Below the pieces are notes generated by a model. That model was not told where the DNA came from. It worked only from the letters and a program-made list of their open reading frames with translations, and searched no databases. 64,000 bases of DNA from contig JABHSO010000005.1 of assembly GCA_018669845.1 (NCBI GenBank), positions 1-64,000 on the forward strand, written 5' to 3'. The stretch is from Gammaproteobacteria bacterium. GTDB taxonomy: Bacteria; Pseudomonadota; Gammaproteobacteria; GCA-001735895. Of this stretch, positions 4,530 to 35,795 are shown one piece after another. The position numbers and the translations under genes are program-made. Numbering within the stretch: position 1 is the first letter of the stretch; each line of letters begins with the position of its first letter.

Positions 4530-5243
4530 ATGCAAAATAAAAAAATCATATTAATTGAAGATAATAAAGATATCTCACAGCTGGTTAAACTGCATTTGAA
4601 TGACATAGGTTTAACAGTTGATGTTTTTATGGATGGTGCTGAGGGCTGGAAAAGTATTCAGCAAAACCCTTATGACCTGATCATTCTTGACATCATGTTG
4701 CCGGGTATGGATGGACTGGAAATACTTAAAAAAATTCGTCAGAGTATCAAGGCTTATTGCCCGATATTAATGTTAACGTCCAGATCATCTGAAATGGATA
4801 GAGTACTGGGTCTTGAACTGGGTGCCGATGACTATCTGACAAAACCTTTTAGTCTGATGGAATTAGTGGCAAGAGTGAAAGCATTGCTACGCCGGCAGGA
4901 TGCGATGAAAGCTTCAGAGCCTCAACATGAAAAATTAAGCTTTAGTGGTTTAACAATAAATACACAGACCAGGGAAGTGTTAAAGCAAAAGGAAAAACTT
5001 GAACTGACGGCAAAAGAGTTTGATCTGCTGCTTCATTTTGCGCGTCATCCGGGTCAGGTTTTTGGCCGTATGCAATTGCTTGATAAAGTCTGGGGTTATG
5101 GTCATGAAGGTTATGAACATACGGTTAACTCTCACATCAATCGATTGCGTGGAAAGCTGGAAACAGATCCGGCATCTCCTGAATTTATAAAAACTGTCTG
5201 GGGTGTTGGTTATCAGTTTAATGCAACAGTCGAGTCAGAATAG
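4530..5243 (+). CDS. OmpR/PhoB-family response regulator
   Basis: 237 residues: an N-terminal receiver domain with the acidic pair ED (residues 10-11), phospho-acceptor Asp54 in LIILDIMLPGMDG and the KP motif in DDYLTKPFS, then a C-terminal winged-helix DNA-binding domain ending in the usual TVWGVGYQF. The histidine kinase gene starts 3 bp after the stop. Targets are unknown; the spondin pair just upstream is the obvious candidate. Confidence 0.93.
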   Translation: MQNKKIILIEDNKDISQLVKLHLNDIGLTVDVFMDGAEGWKSIQQNPYDLIILDIMLPGMDGLEILKKIRQSIKAYCPILMLTSRSSEMDRVLGLELGADDYLTKPFSLMELVARVKALLRRQDAMKASEPQHEKLSFSGLTINTQTREVLKQKEKLELTAKEFDLLLHFARHPGQVFGRMQLLDKVWGYGHEGYEHTVNSHINRLRGKLETDPASPEFIKTVWGVGYQFNATVESE

Positions 5244-10437: not shown

Positions 10438-10479
10438 TTGATATAGATCATGCCTATTACATGATGATCTGCGTATAAA
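10438..10479 (+). promoter_or_regulatory. FNR/ANR box and -10 element of the nifJ promoter
   Basis: TTGAT-ATAG-ATCAT (10438-10451) matches the FNR consensus TTGAT-N4-ATCAA at nine of ten positions. A -10 hexamer TATAAA lies at 10474-10479, so the predicted start of transcription (about 10486) is 41.5 bp from the centre of the box, the spacing of a class II FNR-activated promoter. No good -35 is present, as expected for such promoters. Confidence 0.8.
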
Positions 10480-19461: not shown

Positions 19462-19525
19462 AGGGTGCGCCTTGCGCACCAATGAGTTTTAGTGCCAAAC
19501 CAATGGTGCGCACGGCGCACCCTAC
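19462..19525. repeat. Family A palindromic repeat, full copy
   Basis: AAGGGTGCGCCTTGCGCACC on the left and GGTGCGCACGGCGCACCCTAC on the right, around a 26-bp AT-rich centre. It sits between convergent genes and could act as a bidirectional RNA hairpin. Confidence 0.85.
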
Positions 19526-19563: not shown

Positions 19564-20049
19564 TTAATCCATGTCGGGTTCTTCTCTAAGTTCTTCAGAA
19601 TAGTCTGAAAGTTGTTTCTCTTCTATATCCAGTAAATAAGCCAGATCAGATGTTCTATAACAAATTTGGGTTACCAGTTTATCGATATCTTCTTCTGAGT
19701 TCAGGCCTGATTCTAAACTGAGTAATATGGAGGCTTTAATACCTTTTCTAAAAGATGCTTCGGCATTTTTTGCTGTCACGATATCTTTAGCTGTCAGGTA
19801 TGAAGTTAATATATCCTGAGCAATATCCAGTGTTACACCTAGTTTTAGTGCTAATTCTTTGGCTCCCTTTTTTGCAGATACAATTTTCTCGATAGTATCT
19901 ATATCTTTGGGCATGTATTTATCAAACCGTTTATTTACGCCAAGGTGATCAGCATAATTTGCATAACTGTAAGCAAATGTTTCAGCTGCTAATAACTGTT
20001 TTTTAGACATTCTTTCGTATTTCATTTCTAATGCTCTTGATGTTTTCAA
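19564..20049 (-). CDS. Hypothetical 161-residue protein of the hypC transcription unit
   Basis: Largely helical, charged protein with no signal peptide or membrane helix and no family that I recognise. It follows the 135-residue membrane protein by 21 bp and hypC by two genes on the same strand, downstream of an FNR-type promoter, so it may be induced with the hydrogenase. An internal ATG (MKYERM) nine codons in is an alternative start. Confidence 0.6.
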   Translation of the reverse strand: MKTSRALEMKYERMSKKQLLAAETFAYSYANYADHLGVNKRFDKYMPKDIDTIEKIVSAKKGAKELALKLGVTLDIAQDILTSYLTAKDIVTAKNAEASFRKGIKASILLSLESGLNSEEDIDKLVTQICYRTSDLAYLLDIEEKQLSDYSEELREEPDMD

Positions 20050-20070
20050 GGTTTAAAATGTACTGCAGAT

Positions 20071-20478
20071 TCAGTCAGGAAAAGTTTCATCAATTGTTTT
20101 GAGTGACCTTAGAAATAAACCCAGGCCACCCACCGTAAGCACTAATATGGTGATTAAATCGAAAGCACTCATATGGCGGAAGGTAAATTGTAATGAAGAA
20201 ATAACACCGAAAATTAAAGCAACCAGCGAGCCCGATGCCAGCAACCAGCCTATAAAATTTTTACTGTTATAAAAAACCATTCCGGTGCCGATCATAAAAG
20301 GGATCAGAATCATTCCACTGGTAATGCCGTATCGCCCGAAACCATAAAGGCGCAACCCTAAGCCGAAGTGAGAGGTGACGGTAATGGCATTGAGCAAAAG
20401 ATATAAGCCACCACTTAACATGATAAAACCAATAAAAAATTGGCCAATACCACCTGATGTTCCACCTGCTCCTCGCAT
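20071..20478 (-). CDS. Hypothetical four-helix membrane protein downstream of hypC
   Basis: 135 residues beginning with a Gly-rich MRGAGGTSGG, then four hydrophobic helices (about 12-32, 50-68, 74-95, 107-124). The N-terminal pattern is distinctive, but I cannot name the family. It is 75 bp downstream of hypC on the same strand. Link to hydrogenase function is by position only. Confidence 0.65.
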   Translation of the reverse strand: MRGAGGTSGGIGQFFIGFIMLSGGLYLLLNAITVTSHFGLGLRLYGFGRYGITSGMILIPFMIGTGMVFYNSKNFIGWLLASGSLVALIFGVISSLQFTFRHMSAFDLITILVLTVGGLGLFLRSLKTIDETFPD

Positions 20479-20553: not shown

Positions 20554-20790
20554 TTAGTTATTTGAATCCAAAGTGGCAAACATTTCGTCGTACAGATCCC
20601 AGGCTATCTGGGCATCTTTTTTATCAATTTTCGAGATGATATTTCCCACGCTGATCATCACGTAATCACCAGTTTGCAAGTTATCTTCGAGCATTAATAA
20701 TAAGCTGGCTTTGCGTTTTATACCGCGGGCTTCACAGAGGGCACTGTAACCATTTATCTGTTTGATTTGCATGGGTATTCCCAGGCACAT
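20554..20790 (-). CDS. hypC: [NiFe] hydrogenase maturation chaperone HypC/HupF/HybG
   Basis: 78 residues from the chosen start, typical of HypC. It begins MCLGIPMQI; Cys2, exposed after Met removal, is the residue that carries the Fe(CN)2CO unit with HypD and contacts the large subunit precursor. An upstream in-frame ATG (20802) would bury the essential cysteine, so the start at 20790 is preferred although no strong RBS is visible. It is divergent from the hydrogenase operon and shares its FNR box. No other hyp genes are in the window, so the rest of the maturation set must lie elsewhere. Confidence 0.92.
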   Translation of the reverse strand: MCLGIPMQIKQINGYSALCEARGIKRKASLLLMLEDNLQTGDYVMISVGNIISKIDKKDAQIAWDLYDEMFATLDSNN

Positions 20791-20825: not shown

Positions 20826-20893
20826 ACTATAGCGCGTTTAATTTTAAAAGCGTTGATCTGGATCAAACCTGAAAAATCCACATAATCTATACT
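20826..20893. promoter_or_regulatory. Bidirectional FNR-type promoter of the hydrogenase locus
   Basis: TTGATCTGGATCAA (20853-20866) is a perfect FNR site. On the plus strand a -10 TATACT lies at 20888-20893 (predicted start about 20900). On the minus strand a -10 TATAGT is the complement of 20826-20831 (predicted start about 20819). Both starts are 40.5 bp from the centre of the single box, so one site is placed to activate hypC leftward and the hydrogenase operon rightward. Confidence 0.85.
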
Positions 20894-20926: not shown

Positions 20927-21412
20927 ATGAAAGAAATACGAACACTGGTACTAGGTATAGGTAATACACTATTGACCGATGAAGGTGTAGGCGTTCATGT
21001 GGTCAATCACCTGCAACAGCAAAAAATATCCCCCACTGTTTCCTCTGATGTCACCTTCATGGATGGTGGCACTCTCAGTTTTACACTTGCCGAGCCTATC
21101 GAGTCCTGTGACCAACTCATCGTTATTGATGCATCTGAAATAAAGACTCACCCAGGTGATGTTAAGGTATTTGAAAATGATGAAATGGATACGTTCATCA
21201 CCACTGGTAACAAAAAAAGTGTACACGAAGTAACCCTGGTGGATGTCATGTCTATCGCCATGTTATCCGGGAATTTACCAGAAAAACGAGCCTTAGTGGG
21301 TATCCAGCCAGATAACCTGGACTGGGGTAATGAACCTACAGAAGCGGTACAACAGGCAATTCCAGTTGCCTGCCAGCATGTTAATACTCTGTTGCAAAGG
21401 TGGCAGGTATGA
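20927..21412 (+). CDS. hynD: Hydrogenase maturation endopeptidase (HyaD/HybD/HynD family)
   Basis: 161 residues. Opens with VLGIGNTLLTDEGVGVHVV, the hallmark of the nickel-dependent protease family; the Glu in TDEG and later Asp/His residues bind nickel in the immature large subunit. It cleaves the C-terminal tail of the large subunit after the final His, and the large subunit encoded in this operon has such a tail. First gene of the hydrogenase operon, overlapping the next gene by four bases. The symbol hynD is given because the target here is the Isp-type HynL. Confidence 0.9.
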   Translation: MKEIRTLVLGIGNTLLTDEGVGVHVVNHLQQQKISPTVSSDVTFMDGGTLSFTLAEPIESCDQLIVIDASEIKTHPGDVKVFENDEMDTFITTGNKKSVHEVTLVDVMSIAMLSGNLPEKRALVGIQPDNLDWGNEPTEAVQQAIPVACQHVNTLLQRWQV

Positions 21413-21837
21413 ATCCCTCAAAGTTAGCCATTGAAATCCCTTTAGAAATCGCCGAGCCAACTACAGGCATGGTTCAGGCTGTTCTAAGAGAATTGCTTGA
21501 ACATGTTGAATTATTGATTAAGTCCGGTCAACAGCATGTTATCGATTTAACCAGTTTACCACTGAATGACAGTGATAAAAGAGAACTCAAAAATTTATTG
21601 GGGAAAGGTGAAGTATCGATCACTTTATCAACCCTTGGTGATAGCAAGATTTTTGAAACTGGTATTAATGGTATCTGGTGGATTAAACATTTCAATCCGA
21701 ATGAACAGTTACTTGCAGAGTTGATTGAAATAACCACCATTCCAGAAATTATTAAAAGTCATCCGGACGATATTGAACAGGCAGCCTTTGAATTAAAAAA
21801 GCTCATTGAAAATAATGAATCAGGAGAAGAGGTATGA
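21409..21837 (+). CDS. HupH/HyaF-type hydrogenase expression/formation protein
   Basis: 142 residues from the ATGA-overlap start; an ATG three codons upstream (21400) is in frame but less likely. The sequence INGIWWIKHFNPNEQLLAELIEITTIPEII matches the C-terminal domain of HupH/HyaF proteins, where ...WW...  and the ...EITxxPEI block are conserved. These are accessory proteins of uptake [NiFe] hydrogenases, thought to assist maturation of the small subunit. It is shorter than standard HupH, which also has an N-terminal domain. It overlaps the small-subunit gene by four bases. Confidence 0.78.
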   Translation: MNPSKLAIEIPLEIAEPTTGMVQAVLRELLEHVELLIKSGQQHVIDLTSLPLNDSDKRELKNLLGKGEVSITLSTLGDSKIFETGINGIWWIKHFNPNEQLLAELIEITTIPEIIKSHPDDIEQAAFELKKLIENNESGEEV

Positions 21838-22931
21838 GTGATAACAGACAACAGTTAGCTGGTGAATTGCAGCGTCACGGCATCAGCAGGCGAACGTTTT
21901 TGAAATTCTGTACCAGTATGGCATCGGCCATGGCATTAACACCTGCCGCCGCTGCAGAAATGGCCGAGAAACTGGTCAAAATCAAACGTCAGTCGGTCAT
22001 CTGGTTATCGTTTCAGGAATGTACCGGCTGTACAGAATCCATTACACGCGCTGATAAACCCAGTCTGGAGAGTTTGATTTTTGACTTCATCTCACTTGAT
22101 TATCATCATACTTTACAGGCGGCATCGGGTGATGCTGCTGAACTGGCTCGTGAACAGGCCATGCATGATAACGCAGGAAAATATATCCTGGTCGTCGATG
22201 GCTCAATACCTCTTAAAGATGGAGGGGTTTATTCCACCATTGCCGGCATGACCAACCTGGATATGCTGAAACAGGTAGCCAAAGGTGCTGCAGCCATCGT
22301 GGCCATTGGTAGTTGTGCAGCTTTTGGGGGTTTACCCAAGGCTTCTCCTAACCCCACCGGAGCGGTTTCAGTTTCCGATATTATTCATGACAAACCGATT
22401 ATAAATATTCCAGGCTGTCCCCCAATTCCTGTGGTAATGACCGGGGTGCTGGCTCATGTACTGACTTTTGGTATCCCTGAACTTGATGACATGGGACGTC
22501 CCAAAGCATTTTATGGCGATACTATTCATGATCGCTGCTATCGCAGACCTTTTTATGATCGTGGGGAATTTGCAAAAAGTTTTGATGATGATGGTGCTCG
22601 AAAAGGCTGGTGCCTGTATGAGCTGGGCTGTAAAGGACCCACCACTCACAACGCCTGCGCCACTGTAAAATGGAATAACGGTACCTCATTTCCAATTCAA
22701 TCCGGTCATGGTTGTCTGGGTTGTTCTGAACCGGATTTCTGGGATGCAGGTGGATTTTATAAAGCGATTTCAACCGGTATCGGCAAACCCGGCCAATGGG
22801 CGACCGGCGCTTTAGCGGCGGGTGCGGCGGCAGGTTTGGCTTCAGCCTACTTGAATAAGGTGACTAAGTCGAAAGCCGAGAAAGATCACCAGGAAGTAAC
22901 CCTTGAAGATATGGGAGGCAAACATGAATGA
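21834..22931 (+). CDS. hynS: Isp-type [NiFe] hydrogenase small subunit (group 1, probably 1e)
   Basis: 365 residues. A twin-arginine signal (SRRTFLK, residues 18-24) exports the folded enzyme to the periplasm. The proximal 4Fe-4S site starts at ECTGCTES (Cys63, Cys66); the Gly between the cysteines shows the standard four-cysteine form and not the six-cysteine oxygen-tolerant form (CTCC). Later cysteines in GSCAAFGG and IPGCPP complete it; the distal site (DRCYRRPF, WCLYELGC) and medial site (NACATVKWN, GCLGCSEP) follow. Passes electrons from the large subunit toward Isp1/Isp2. Operon order S-isp1-isp2-L is diagnostic of the Isp type. Confidence 0.95.
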   Translation: MSDNRQQLAGELQRHGISRRTFLKFCTSMASAMALTPAAAAEMAEKLVKIKRQSVIWLSFQECTGCTESITRADKPSLESLIFDFISLDYHHTLQAASGDAAELAREQAMHDNAGKYILVVDGSIPLKDGGVYSTIAGMTNLDMLKQVAKGAAAIVAIGSCAAFGGLPKASPNPTGAVSVSDIIHDKPIINIPGCPPIPVVMTGVLAHVLTFGIPELDDMGRPKAFYGDTIHDRCYRRPFYDRGEFAKSFDDDGARKGWCLYELGCKGPTTHNACATVKWNNGTSFPIQSGHGCLGCSEPDFWDAGGFYKAISTGIGKPGQWATGALAAGAAAGLASAYLNKVTKSKAEKDHQEVTLEDMGGKHE

Positions 22932-23571
22932 AATTGAACTGTTGAACTGGGCTCGAGGTCCAGGTCTGGCGTATGCCACTATTATTATGGTTTTTGGTTT
23001 GACATTAAGGGTATTTGAGATTCTTTCTCTTGGTCGAGCTGAGGAACTGGCTGAGGTTAGAGGTTCTGGAGTGTCCGATGGATGGAAAATGATTTTTAAA
23101 CGTTCATTGCCTGAACCGAGACATTGGAAGCTTATTACAGCATCTTATATTTTTCATGTTGGGCTGCTTGTAATTATTTTCTTTTTTATTCCGCATACCC
23201 AGTTTTTCAGGGATGTATTTGGCGTGTTCTGGAGTGGCTGGCCAAATTATGTTATCGACTTTTTCACGGTGCTGAGTATTGCTGCCATGATGTATACGCT
23301 TGTTTCCAGGTTTGTTGATCCTACTCGACGTATTCTGAGTAAGATGTCCGATTATTTTGCCTGGGTCGTTACTTTTTTACCGTTAGTAACCGGTTACATG
23401 GCTTTTCATCGACTGGGTATGGATTACACCACGATGTTAGCAGTGCATATTCTCTCAGTGGAGTTATTAATGATATCTCTGCCGATCAGTAAATTAACCC
23501 ATGCAATTACTTTCACTATGGCACGTTACTACACAGGATCGAGTAATGGTCGCAGGGGGATTCAGTCATGA
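22924..23571 (+). CDS. isp1: Isp1: membrane cytochrome b-like subunit of the hydrogenase
   Basis: 215 residues from the ATG at 22924 (RBS GGGAGG at 22913-22918, overlapping the end of hynS by 8 bp). Five hydrophobic segments with histidines suited to haem b ligation (YIFHVGLL, YMAFHRLG, LAVHILS) resemble the NarI/DsrM/HdrE cytochrome b type. In Isp hydrogenases this subunit links the periplasmic HynSL heterodimer to the quinone pool or to Isp2. Its stop overlaps the isp2 start (ATGA). Confidence 0.92.
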   Translation: MNEIELLNWARGPGLAYATIIMVFGLTLRVFEILSLGRAEELAEVRGSGVSDGWKMIFKRSLPEPRHWKLITASYIFHVGLLVIIFFFIPHTQFFRDVFGVFWSGWPNYVIDFFTVLSIAAMMYTLVSRFVDPTRRILSKMSDYFAWVVTFLPLVTGYMAFHRLGMDYTTMLAVHILSVELLMISLPISKLTHAITFTMARYYTGSSNGRRGIQS

Positions 23572-24836
23572 GTACTTCATTTGAACAAGGTATAAACACT
23601 TTAAAACAAGTGATTGATGCACCCATAGCTGCATATTTCTCCAGCTGTACAAATTGTGGATTATGCTCCAGAGCCTGTATTTTTTATACAGAAACTGAAA
23701 ATCCAAAATACACCCCGATTAGACGTGTTGAGCCAATGCGCAGAATATGGGAGCAGGAATTTACGCTGGTAGGTAAAGCTAAAAAAGCACTGGGTCTTTC
23801 TAAAGAAGTTACCGAACAGGACTTAAAGGACTGTGTAGAGCTGGCCTTTGAAAGCTGCACAACCTGTGGTCGTTGTAGCATGGTTTGTCCGGTTGGTAAT
23901 GATATTGTTTATATGATTCGTCGCATGCGTGAAGGTTTGACTGCTGCGGGACTGGCTCCAAAATCCCTGCAAGATGCAGCCGTAAGAACTATGGAGAAAG
24001 GCAGCGTCATGGGTTTTCCAATGAAAACTCTTGAAGCAATGGTGAAAGCTGCAGAAAAAGAAACCGGTATTGAAATAAATATTGATAAACCGGATGTTGA
24101 TTATCTGTTGCTATTATCTTCTGCTGAAGTTATGCAGTTTAATGAAATAATTGCCTCTCTGGCACAAATATTTAAAGAAGCTGGTGTTAGCTGGACTTTT
24201 AGTTCCATTGCACATGAAGCGGGTAACCCAGGTATGCATATGGGAGCTTCTGAAATTGAAGCACAGATGATAAATAGAATTGTTCAGGCAGCTGAAGAGT
24301 TGAATATTAAAAATGTCATCAGCCCTGAATGTGGCCATGCTTATATGGCTATTCGCTGGGAAGGCCCGAATGTCATTGGTCGCCCATATCCTTTCAAGGT
24401 TTATCATATTATTGAAGTACTGGATAAACTCAGGGAGCAGGGCAAGCTAAAAACAACCGGCTGTGAATTAGAAAGAATTACTTTCCATGATCCCTGTCAG
24501 GCTGCACGTCGAGGAGGTGTCAATCAACCTCAACGTAACCTACTGAATATGGTGTCATCAAATTTTATTGAAATGAAAGATAGTCAGGCATGCAACTGGT
24601 GCTGTGGAGGTGGAGGCGGTGTGAACACCATTGAAAAAGCTGAACCACTGATGAAGAAAGTGTTCAATCGCAAAAGAAACCAGATAGAAGAGCTGGATGT
24701 TACAACCGTCGTTACCATGTGTGCGACCTGTCGTAATACACTCGAAGAAGGTATCGAAAACAACAACATGAATGTTCAGGTACTTGGCCTGACCGAACTG
24801 GTTGCCAATCACCTGTTGAAGGAGAAAAAATCATGA
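23568..24836 (+). CDS. isp2: Isp2: HdrD/DsrK-like iron-sulfur subunit of the hydrogenase
   Basis: 422 residues. Two 4Fe-4S binding motifs at the N-terminus (CTNCGLCSRAC, Cys27-37; CTTCGRCSMVC near 97-107), then two cysteine-rich CCG-type regions typical of heterodisulfide reductase HdrB/HdrD: HDPC near 311, NWCCGGGGG near 345, and TMCATC near 384. This is the DsrK/HdrD-like subunit that, with Isp1, accepts electrons at the cytoplasmic face. A thiol/disulfide or sulfur-linked substrate is suggested by homology, but not known for Isp2. Four-base overlaps on both sides show tight coupling. Confidence 0.93.
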   Translation: MSTSFEQGINTLKQVIDAPIAAYFSSCTNCGLCSRACIFYTETENPKYTPIRRVEPMRRIWEQEFTLVGKAKKALGLSKEVTEQDLKDCVELAFESCTTCGRCSMVCPVGNDIVYMIRRMREGLTAAGLAPKSLQDAAVRTMEKGSVMGFPMKTLEAMVKAAEKETGIEINIDKPDVDYLLLLSSAEVMQFNEIIASLAQIFKEAGVSWTFSSIAHEAGNPGMHMGASEIEAQMINRIVQAAEELNIKNVISPECGHAYMAIRWEGPNVIGRPYPFKVYHIIEVLDKLREQGKLKTTGCELERITFHDPCQAARRGGVNQPQRNLLNMVSSNFIEMKDSQACNWCCGGGGGVNTIEKAEPLMKKVFNRKRNQIEELDVTTVVTMCATCRNTLEEGIENNNMNVQVLGLTELVANHLLKEKKS

Positions 24837-26569
24837 GCGAACGTGTAGTCGTTGACCCTATCACGCGAATTGAAGGGCATTTACGTATCGAAGCTGAAAC
24901 TGATGCCAGTGGCAACATCATTGGTGCCTCCAGTGCTGGCACCATGGTTCGTGGCATTGAGTTAATTTTGAAAGGTCGTGATCCGCGTGATGCCTGGGCA
25001 TATGCACAACGTATCTGTGGTGTTTGCACTTTGGTGCATGGTATTGCGTCGGTACGAAGTGTTGAAAATGCACTCAATTATCAAATTCCAGCTAATGCTC
25101 AACTGATCAGGAATTTGATGATAGCCGCTCAATATGTGCATGACCATGTGATGCATTTTTATCACTTACATGCACTCGACTGGGTCGATGTAGTGTCTGC
25201 TTTAAAAGCAGATCCTAAAGCGACTTCGGCTCTGGCACAGTCGTTGTCTAAATGGCCAAAATCATCCCCCGGTTACTTTTCTGATGTGCAAAAGAAGATT
25301 AAGGATTTTGTAGAATCAGGTCAGCTAGGAATTTTCACTAATGGTTACTGGGGACACCCAGCTTATAAATTACCACCTGAAGCTAATTTAATGGCTGTGG
25401 CTCATTATCTGGAAGCTTTATCCTGGCAGCGTGAAGTAGTGAAAATTCATACTATTTTTGGAGGTAAAAATCCGCACCCTAATTTTCTTGTGGGTGGAGC
25501 ACCTTCACCCATCAGTGGAGTCTCTGGTGATATGGGAGCGACTGCACTGAATATTCTGGGACTACAGGAAGTAAGCAACACGATTACTAAAATGATGGAC
25601 TTTGTCGATAATGTGTACGTTCCGGATACTATTGCAATAGCGGGATTCTACAAAGACTGGTTCAAGCGAGGAGCAGGAGTGCGCAATTTCATGACCTTTG
25701 GTGATATGCCTGAAACAAGCATGGATGATCCTTCGAGCTATTTCATTCCAGGTGGTGTCATACTCGATCGTAATTTGAGTAAAATCCATCCGTTGGATTT
25801 AAATGATCCAGAGCAGGTTAAAGAATTTATTGCGCACTCCTATTATGATTATTCTGCGGGTAAAGAGGCTGGTCTACACCCTTATGATGGCGAAACAAAC
25901 CTGAATTACACGGGTCCTAAACCTCCTTATGATTTTCTCGATATTGAAAATAGTTACTCCTGGATGAAGTCACCACGCTGGAAAGGTCAGCCGATGGAAG
26001 TAGGGCCACTGGCGCGTGTTTTGATGTTATATGCCAGCGGTCATGAGCCTACACAAAATTTAACCAATAGTGTTTTAAAGAAACTGGATGTGCCCATTGA
26101 TGCATTGTATTCAACGCTGGGTAGAACAGCAGCTCGAACACTGGAAACCAAGCTAATCGGCGATAAAATGCAGAGCTGGCTGGGTAAATTAATTGGTAAT
26201 ATTAAAGCGGGTGATTTGAGTGTGCACAACACTGAGTTTTGGGAACCTTCTAGCTGGCCTTCAGAAGCTAGAGGTGTGGGCTTTATGGAAGCTCCCCGTG
26301 GCGCACTGGCGCACTGGATAGTCATTAAGGATGAGAAAATAGCCAACTATCAGGCAGTTGTACCGTCAACCTGGAATGCTGGACCTCGAGATGTCGATGG
26401 ACAGGATGGTCCTTACGAAGCAGCGTTAACAGATAATCATCAACTGCATGATCCTAAACAGCCGATTGAAATTCTGCGTACCATTCACAGTTTTGACCCC
26501 TGTATTGCCTGTGCAGTGCATGTCACTGACCCTGAAGGAGATGAACTGGTTAAGGTAAAAGTAAGGTGA
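24833..26569 (+). CDS. hynL: Isp-type [NiFe] hydrogenase large subunit
   Basis: 578 residues. Nickel ligands: RICGVC (Cys62, Cys65) and DPCIACAVH (Cys557, Cys560). After His563 there is a 15-residue tail (VTDPEGDELVKVKVR) to be removed by the maturation protease. It carries the active site that interconverts H2 with protons and electrons; in Thiocapsa-type Isp enzymes the reaction is reversible in vivo. It lacks its own Tat signal and is exported with HynS. Full length; no defects seen. The operon ends here; the 214 bp to the next gene show no clear terminator. Confidence 0.96.
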   Translation: MSERVVVDPITRIEGHLRIEAETDASGNIIGASSAGTMVRGIELILKGRDPRDAWAYAQRICGVCTLVHGIASVRSVENALNYQIPANAQLIRNLMIAAQYVHDHVMHFYHLHALDWVDVVSALKADPKATSALAQSLSKWPKSSPGYFSDVQKKIKDFVESGQLGIFTNGYWGHPAYKLPPEANLMAVAHYLEALSWQREVVKIHTIFGGKNPHPNFLVGGAPSPISGVSGDMGATALNILGLQEVSNTITKMMDFVDNVYVPDTIAIAGFYKDWFKRGAGVRNFMTFGDMPETSMDDPSSYFIPGGVILDRNLSKIHPLDLNDPEQVKEFIAHSYYDYSAGKEAGLHPYDGETNLNYTGPKPPYDFLDIENSYSWMKSPRWKGQPMEVGPLARVLMLYASGHEPTQNLTNSVLKKLDVPIDALYSTLGRTAARTLETKLIGDKMQSWLGKLIGNIKAGDLSVHNTEFWEPSSWPSEARGVGFMEAPRGALAHWIVIKDEKIANYQAVVPSTWNAGPRDVDGQDGPYEAALTDNHQLHDPKQPIEILRTIHSFDPCIACAVHVTDPEGDELVKVKVR

Positions 26570-34919: not shown

Positions 34920-35672
34920 CTAGGGTTGGCCAGAATCTTCGCAGTTAGCAACCATCTCATTTAGTTTGTCAATATCAATGATATCAACCTGTTTACGGTT
35001 GATTTTCACCACTCCCTTTTCCTGAAAAGACTTAAACAAGCGACTGACGGTTTCCACTGCAATACCCAGATAGCCTGCAATGTCATGACGTGACATGGGT
35101 AGCATAAAGCTGGTAGCTGAAAAGCCACGGCGTTTAAATCGACTAGAGATGCTTAATAAAAAGGTGGCGAGACGTTCATGAGCCGTTTGCTGACCCAGTA
35201 ATAGCAAATGCGCATGATCACAGTTCATTTCATGGCCTAATAAATGACAAACCTGATGACGCAGTTCCGGCATTTCTGCACATAGCTGGTCTAACTGGTC
35301 ATAGGGTAAAACACAATAGGAAGTGTTTTCCATGGTTGTGGCATAACAACGTTGTTTGGAATTTTCCAGACCATCAAGACCAAAGACTTCTCCTGGAAGG
35401 TGAAAACCTAGAATTTGCTGCTCACCTGTTTTTTTGGTTAGATAAGTTTTAACTCCGCCGGAACGAACAGCGTAAAAACCTACAAATTTATCACCTGGTT
35501 GGTATATTTGAACGTTATGAGCAAGATTTCTCGGGCGCTCAATGTAATCATCCAATACATCCATTTCTTTAGCATTCAGACCCCTTGGCAAGCACAATTC
35601 TGACAGGCTGCAGGATTCACAGCTTACTTTGAGTTGCTTGGTAAGCTGAACTTGGTTCATGAGTTTTTGCAT
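34920..35672 (-). CDS. fnr: FNR/ANR-family oxygen-sensing transcription regulator
   Basis: 250 residues. The N-terminal cluster ligands CESCSLSELC (Cys18, Cys21, Cys27) have the exact FNR spacing; the fourth ligand is the Cys in TSYCVLPYDQL. A cAMP-receptor-like beta roll, dimer helix and C-terminal helix-turn-helix follow, with the recognition residues ETVSR (E..SR as in E. coli FNR), predicting binding to TTGAT-N4-ATCAA. It loses its 4Fe-4S cluster on exposure to oxygen. It is divergent from ccoN and convergent with hemN. Matching sites occur upstream of several genes in this window. Confidence 0.95.
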   Translation of the reverse strand: MQKLMNQVQLTKQLKVSCESCSLSELCLPRGLNAKEMDVLDDYIERPRNLAHNVQIYQPGDKFVGFYAVRSGGVKTYLTKKTGEQQILGFHLPGEVFGLDGLENSKQRCYATTMENTSYCVLPYDQLDQLCAEMPELRHQVCHLLGHEMNCDHAHLLLLGQQTAHERLATFLLSISSRFKRRGFSATSFMLPMSRHDIAGYLGIAVETVSRLFKSFQEKGVVKINRKQVDIIDIDKLNEMVANCEDSGQP

Positions 35673-35781: not shown

Positions 35782-35795
35782 TTGATCCATGTCAT
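35782..35795 (+). promoter_or_regulatory. FNR/ANR-type box upstream of ccoN
   Basis: TTGAT-CCAT-GTCAT matches the ANR/FixK-type consensus TTGAT-N4-GTCAA at nine of ten positions. A class II start would fall near 35830, with only a poor -10 (CACACT, 35818-35823), so the promoter call is weaker than for nifJ, hemN and the hydrogenase. It lies in the 191-bp fnr-ccoN spacer and might also serve fnr. Confidence 0.6.

Follow-up and report, generated by a model that had tools for sequence, protein, structure and literature searches.

A candidate FNR-family site shared by two predicted divergent class II promoters at a gammaproteobacterial hydrogenase locus

The gap between hypC and hynD in the 64-kb stretch of gammaproteobacterial DNA analyzed here (hereafter, the window) contains a single FNR box with a TATAAT-like hexamer at the same distance on each strand. 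We consider it likely that the two hexamers belong to divergent class II promoters sharing this one FNR-family site, and that the enzyme operon and HypC would be co-induced under anaerobic conditions.

The hydrogenase locus and the hypC-hynD gap

The rightward genes hynD-hupH-hynS-isp1-isp2-hynL very likely form one operon, because all of their ends overlap. The order hynS-isp1-isp2-hynL, together with the maturation genes recognized in Pfam and NCBIfam, identified the locus as that of an Isp-type [NiFe] uptake hydrogenase (Table 1); the names isp1 and isp2 are based on gene order and on TmcC/DsrK-like matches below the curated cut-offs. The original prediction described the rightward operon as structural genes, which has to be corrected, since it begins with a maturation protease gene and a chaperone gene.

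Table 1. Features of the hypC-hynD region and the candidate regulator gene (window coordinates)
Feature	Position	Strand	Basis or remark
Second protein behind hypC, 22 bp after the preceding gene	19564..20049	-	No homologue in the relatives searched
Small membrane-like protein, 76 bp after hypC	20071..20478	-	Homologue only in the closest sister, L023/L064
hypC, [NiFe]-hydrogenase maturation chaperone	20554..20790	-	PF01455 (E=1.6e-20), TIGR00074
-10 hexamer TATAGT, predicted hypC promoter	20826..20831	-	Predicted start ~20819; conserved in 7/8 species
FNR box TTGATCTGGATCAA	20853..20866	.	Perfect core match; kept in 8/8 species compared
-10 hexamer TATACT, predicted hynD promoter	20888..20893	+	Predicted start ~20900; relatives keep a hexamer at offset 35/36 (weak in L027)
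hynD/hyaD-type hydrogenase maturation protease, first gene of the rightward operon	20927..21412	+	PF01750, TIGR00140/TIGR00072
hupH-type hydrogenase chaperone	21400..21837	+	PF04809 (E=2.1e-31)
hynS, hydrogenase small subunit	21834..22931	+	Tat-like SRRTFLKF signal; PF14720, PF01058, TIGR00391
isp1-like membrane cytochrome b subunit	22921..23571	+	Start approximate; TmcC/HmcE-like, below curated cut-off; name from gene order
isp2-like Fe-S/CCG-domain subunit	23568..24836	+	PF02754, DsrK/HmcF-like
hynL, hydrogenase large subunit	24833..26569	+	PF00374 (E=1e-232)
fnr, candidate regulator	34920..35672	-	CX2CX5C and fourth cysteine, VETVSR reading head; NCBIfam PRK11161

The start of hypC was set at the ATG at 20790 (MCLGIP...), because HypC proteins need an MC... 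start; the first ATG of the listed open reading frame (20802) is 12 bp too early. With this start, the gap measures 136 bp, and the box is separated from hypC by 62 bp and from hynD by 60 bp, which places it midway between the two, as had been proposed. The two proteins encoded behind hypC (19564-20478) had no significant match in Pfam or NCBIfam. Only hypC can be regarded as a steady leftward partner, because these two genes are restricted to the window genome, one of them also occurring in the sister L023. Thus, from the maturation set that was originally predicted to be coupled to the enzyme, namely hypC and two unknown genes, hypC was retained, but the other two are not conserved in relatives. 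Two nearly identical hairpins (GGTGCGC...GCGCACC; 19464-19521), one on each strand, were also observed between the convergent ends of the left-hand operon and a GGDEF/EAL-type gene encoding 1156 aa.

The genome carries three copies of hypC. The other two are located on contig C94 together with the only hypD, which represents the rest of the Hyp machinery, and that contig is free of perfect boxes, of which the genome has 30. A second hydrogenase small subunit, 52% identical, is also encoded there.

The box TTGATCTGGATCAA, described as perfect in the original prediction, is centered at 20859.5, and its perfect palindromic core, TTGAT-N4-ATCAA, occurs only once in the window. Shuffles of the window gave an expectation of 0.25 perfect boxes, and at least one was found in 22 of 100 shuffles; the single perfect box, taken alone, is therefore weak to modest evidence of function. 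A reading as a CRP site was rejected, as the half-site is TTGAT and not TGTGA.

The starts predicted from the -10 positions are mirror images of each other, each 40.5 bp from the center of the box and 81 bp apart. The hexamers TATACT and TATAGT thus agree with the proposed class II spacing on both strands, and one site lies within activating distance of two predicted divergent promoters. At a predicted -40.5, FNR is at a normal activating position: promoters activated by FNR in E. coli have their sites at -41.5 ± 4, including -40.5 at focA-pflB, nikA, and yfiD (PMC3688515), and activation by CRP from -40.5 is known as well (PMC12825309). When 63,860 positions of the window were scanned for -10 scores of ≥5.2 at offsets 35/36 to the left and to the right, one position passed, which was the hypC-hynD box; no other perfect box in the genome, which has 30, is flanked by strong -10 hexamers in both directions. 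A consensus scan of the gap found no other sigma-70 match facing hypC.

Conservation of the box and the -10 hexamers

The gap was compared with those of seven further species whose hydrogenases are the most similar (L023/L064, L024/L066, L065, L025, L027/L069, L067, and L068), all listed in the same genus except L025. The box was kept in all eight species with at most one mismatch; its core was perfect in five of the relatives, and the other two (L067 and L068) carried TTGAT-N4-GTCAA. On the right side, the hexamers at offset 35/36 were TATACT in the window and TATACT, TATTAT (L066), TATCAT, TAATAT, TATAAT, and TATAAT (L067 and L068) in the relatives, with one weak hexamer in L027. On the left side, seven of the eight species had a hexamer at this offset, namely TATAGT in the window and TATAGT, TAGATT, TATGTT, TAGATT, TAGATT, and TATAGT in the relatives. 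The exception was L067, with no hexamer at the exact spacing, TACACT one base further, and TATAAT 7-8 bases nearer.

The mean -10 scores at offsets 35/36 were 5.1 on the right and 3.8 on the left, whereas the shuffles averaged -0.2 and -0.3. None of the 5000 shuffles reached either mean, and the combined score of the box and the two hexamers gave z values of 4.8-7.8 in all eight species, which is the floor of 400 shuffles; these shuffle values are not true probabilities, because the eight species are related and the shuffles ignore their kinship. Compared in register, the surrounding bases were mostly 14-53% identical, with 64-78% in the closest pair (window and L064). Since the identity of the flanks is near random, the comparison argues that constraint, and not recent ancestry, holds the positions of the box and the hexamers.

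Beyond the genus, the divergent hypC/hynD order is more widespread than the box and is box-free in Thiobacillus, Magnetovibrio, and other loci. A strong module was absent from 22 of the 25 outside-genus hypC-hynD gaps, and the idea that the box is conserved wherever hypC faces hynD was therefore rejected. The 79%-identical L026 has no box, and many hyn loci found by the class search have no good one. In L074, L134, and L137, hypC was not detected beside hynD, and an FNR-like box is located upstream of hynD alone.

The two-sided module was found in three of the 25 gaps (L047, L078, and L075). In the hypC-hynD gap of L047 (about 4808-5060; 61% G+C), TACCAT stands at offset 35 to the left and to the right of TTGATTTATGTCAA, which is, to judge from these predicted elements, the same symmetric design in a distant G+C-rich relative outside the genus. 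The boxes outside the genus were the best per gap and were compared with shuffles making the same choice, and the three modules are treated here as leads. The nearest listed relatives of L075 and L078 mostly had no hydrogenase or had a one-way box.

Candidate regulators and use of the motif in the genome

The organism encodes an FNR with the Fe-S cysteines and a matching reading head. The gene is located 14 kb from the box in the same window, between hemN-like and ccoN-like genes. Its product scored 242 bits against NCBIfam PRK11161 (cut-off 228), aligned nearly end to end with the solved FNR 5cvr, and possessed all four cluster cysteines (residues 20, 23, 29, and 122 of the open frame). A wider HTH search revealed 13 Crp-family genes above the cut-off in the genome; among the 12 proteins whose sequences were read, only FNR had the CX2CX5C cysteines. 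Contig C215 encodes two members of the Crp family whose reading head is PETFSR; we take both to be of the DNR type, and one of them has a perfect box upstream. DNR and FNR recognize nearly the same sequence, and these two regulators could share the hypC-hynD box with FNR.

The genome contains 30 perfect boxes, against 4 matches to a reversed control pattern, which indicates that the motif is in use. Some of the perfect boxes precede cytochrome d1, multihaem cytochrome, and DNR-type genes. Contig C215 (genome G000; L101-L104, L141, L143) has four of them, a cytochrome-d1-type gene, and the two DNR-type regulators. Within the window, a near-perfect FNR box, TTGATATAGATCAT (10438-10451), with TATAAA at offset 36, stands upstream of a pyruvate:ferredoxin oxidoreductase gene (10513) and probably marks another class II FNR promoter. 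In addition, TTGATCCATGTCAT (35782-35795; 2 mismatches) is located between fnr (-) and the cbb3-oxidase-like ccoN (+), possibly for FNR autoregulation or repression.

Proposed mechanism, alternatives, and comparison with known systems

The hypC-hynD gap would contain two back-to-back sigma-70 promoters without good -35 boxes and with a common FNR-family site. In the absence of oxygen, the Fe-S FNR dimer would bind the symmetric box; either subunit could serve as the promoter-proximal one, the same surface being offered to both sides. RNA polymerase would be recruited either rightward, to hynD-hupH-hynS-isp1-isp2-hynL, or leftward, to hypC and, in this genome, the two lineage-specific genes. 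The enzyme, its dedicated protease, the chaperones, and the HypC copy would thereby be induced together. The footprint of polymerase at a class II promoter extends from about -55 to +20. Because the predicted starts are 81 bp apart, the two footprints would overlap across the box, at about 20845-20874, and the initiations would be expected to take turns and not to coincide. The original proposal that one dimer serves both directions is upheld in part: the conservation of the box, spacing, and hexamers and the presence of FNR in the window strongly favor its core, whereas the geometry suggests alternating rather than simultaneous firing. More tentatively, a single FNR dimer may act as a two-faced class II activator, with alternating initiations that fix the ratio of HypC to its client hydrogenase, a design kept under selection in the genus and recurring in at least three other lineages (L047, L075, and L078); we put this forward with considerable doubt.

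The left and right sides of the gap differ in strength, which bears on whether there are two promoters at all. Within the genus, the right -10 outscores the left one and varies less, L067 deviates on the left side, and in three loci an FNR-like box precedes hynD alone. Such observations would fit a one-way class II promoter for hynD, with the left TATAGT as a chance match or a weak upstream antisense start and hypC transcribed from elsewhere. We regard this as quite improbable, as the left hexamer is conserved at offset 35/36 in seven of the eight species with a score that no shuffle equals, and hypC needs a promoter in the gap, where TATAGT marks the only sigma-70 match that faces it in the consensus scan. 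The identity of the main binder is a separate matter. A NO-sensing regulator of the DNR type, which would make the locus answer to denitrification, is brought into consideration by the two PETFSR proteins, by the box upstream of one of them, by the near-identical recognition sequences, and by the GTCAA variants in L067 and L068. It seems unlikely, however, in view of the FNR encoded in the same window, the generic regulator of TTGAT-N4-ATCAA, and of the known FNR-type control of hydrogenase maturation genes in Rhizobium leguminosarum hypBFCDEX (PMC3534401).

Even with FNR bound, the two transcripts could be opposed instead of coupled, if FNR represses at least one promoter or if polymerase recruited to one side silences the opposite promoter. 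Bidirectional promoters of E. coli often show repression of one transcript when its partner is strongly activated, also by CRP at -40.5; there, however, the two starts share a single -10 (PMC12825309), whereas the starts predicted here are separated by 81 bp, and each has a -10 of its own within activating distance. It would also make little biological sense for a chaperone and its client to be expressed in opposition, and we give this possibility a low probability. A chance arrangement without regulatory meaning is hardly credible: perfect boxes do arise in window shuffles at the frequency given above, but box, spacing, and hexamers are conserved in eight species despite diverged flanks, and the two-sided -10 pattern is unique among the positions scanned.

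The two-promoter reading has several known counterparts. El-Robh and Busby reportedly described how CRP activates divergent promoters from one site (Biochem J 368:835-843, 2002; cited in PMC5434802). There, too, one Crp-family dimer at a single target has two divergent promoters within activating distance; that work was reportedly a systematic study of CRP in E. coli, whereas the present case, as predicted from the sequence, is a natural FNR-type site with mirror spacing, found genus-wide at a hydrogenase locus. Because a report on CRP acting in this way exists, the principle is counted as already known; a natural FNR example at a hydrogenase, both conserved and symmetric, would be a new member. 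Control by FnrT is known for hynSL of Thiocapsa roseopersicina. Both this system and R. leguminosarum hypBFCDEX resemble the proposed one in that an FNR-type regulator activates hydrogenase or Hyp genes at low oxygen, but they are known only with single-direction promoters and are not known to have a site shared between hypC and the hyn operon. The class II FNR promoters of E. coli nrf, narG, dmsA, and nirB have the site about 41.5 bp upstream of the start, in the place of the -35 (PMC3688515, PMC5434802); they have been described as one-way, in contrast to the class II distance predicted here on both strands. In E. coli flgA/flgB, one FlhD4C2 site serves two divergent operons of one functional system (PMC12781870), although the activator family is unrelated and the geometry differs. 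Divergent transcription with a possible clash of polymerases is also a trait of bidirectional promoters whose two starts share one symmetric -10 (PMC12825309). The hypC-hynD gap was not assigned to this class, as it has two separate -10 hexamers, no shared one, and predicted starts 81 bp apart.

In conclusion, the hypC-hynD gap presents one FNR-family site with two predicted class II promoters in a natural and conserved form that is unusually symmetric. It may serve as a compact test case for whether shared activator sites set expression ratios. In a setting of chaperone and client enzyme, fixed co-induction would make sense, and the arrangement ties the Isp-type enzyme to a dedicated HypC copy, separate from the two other hypC copies and the only hypD on another contig.
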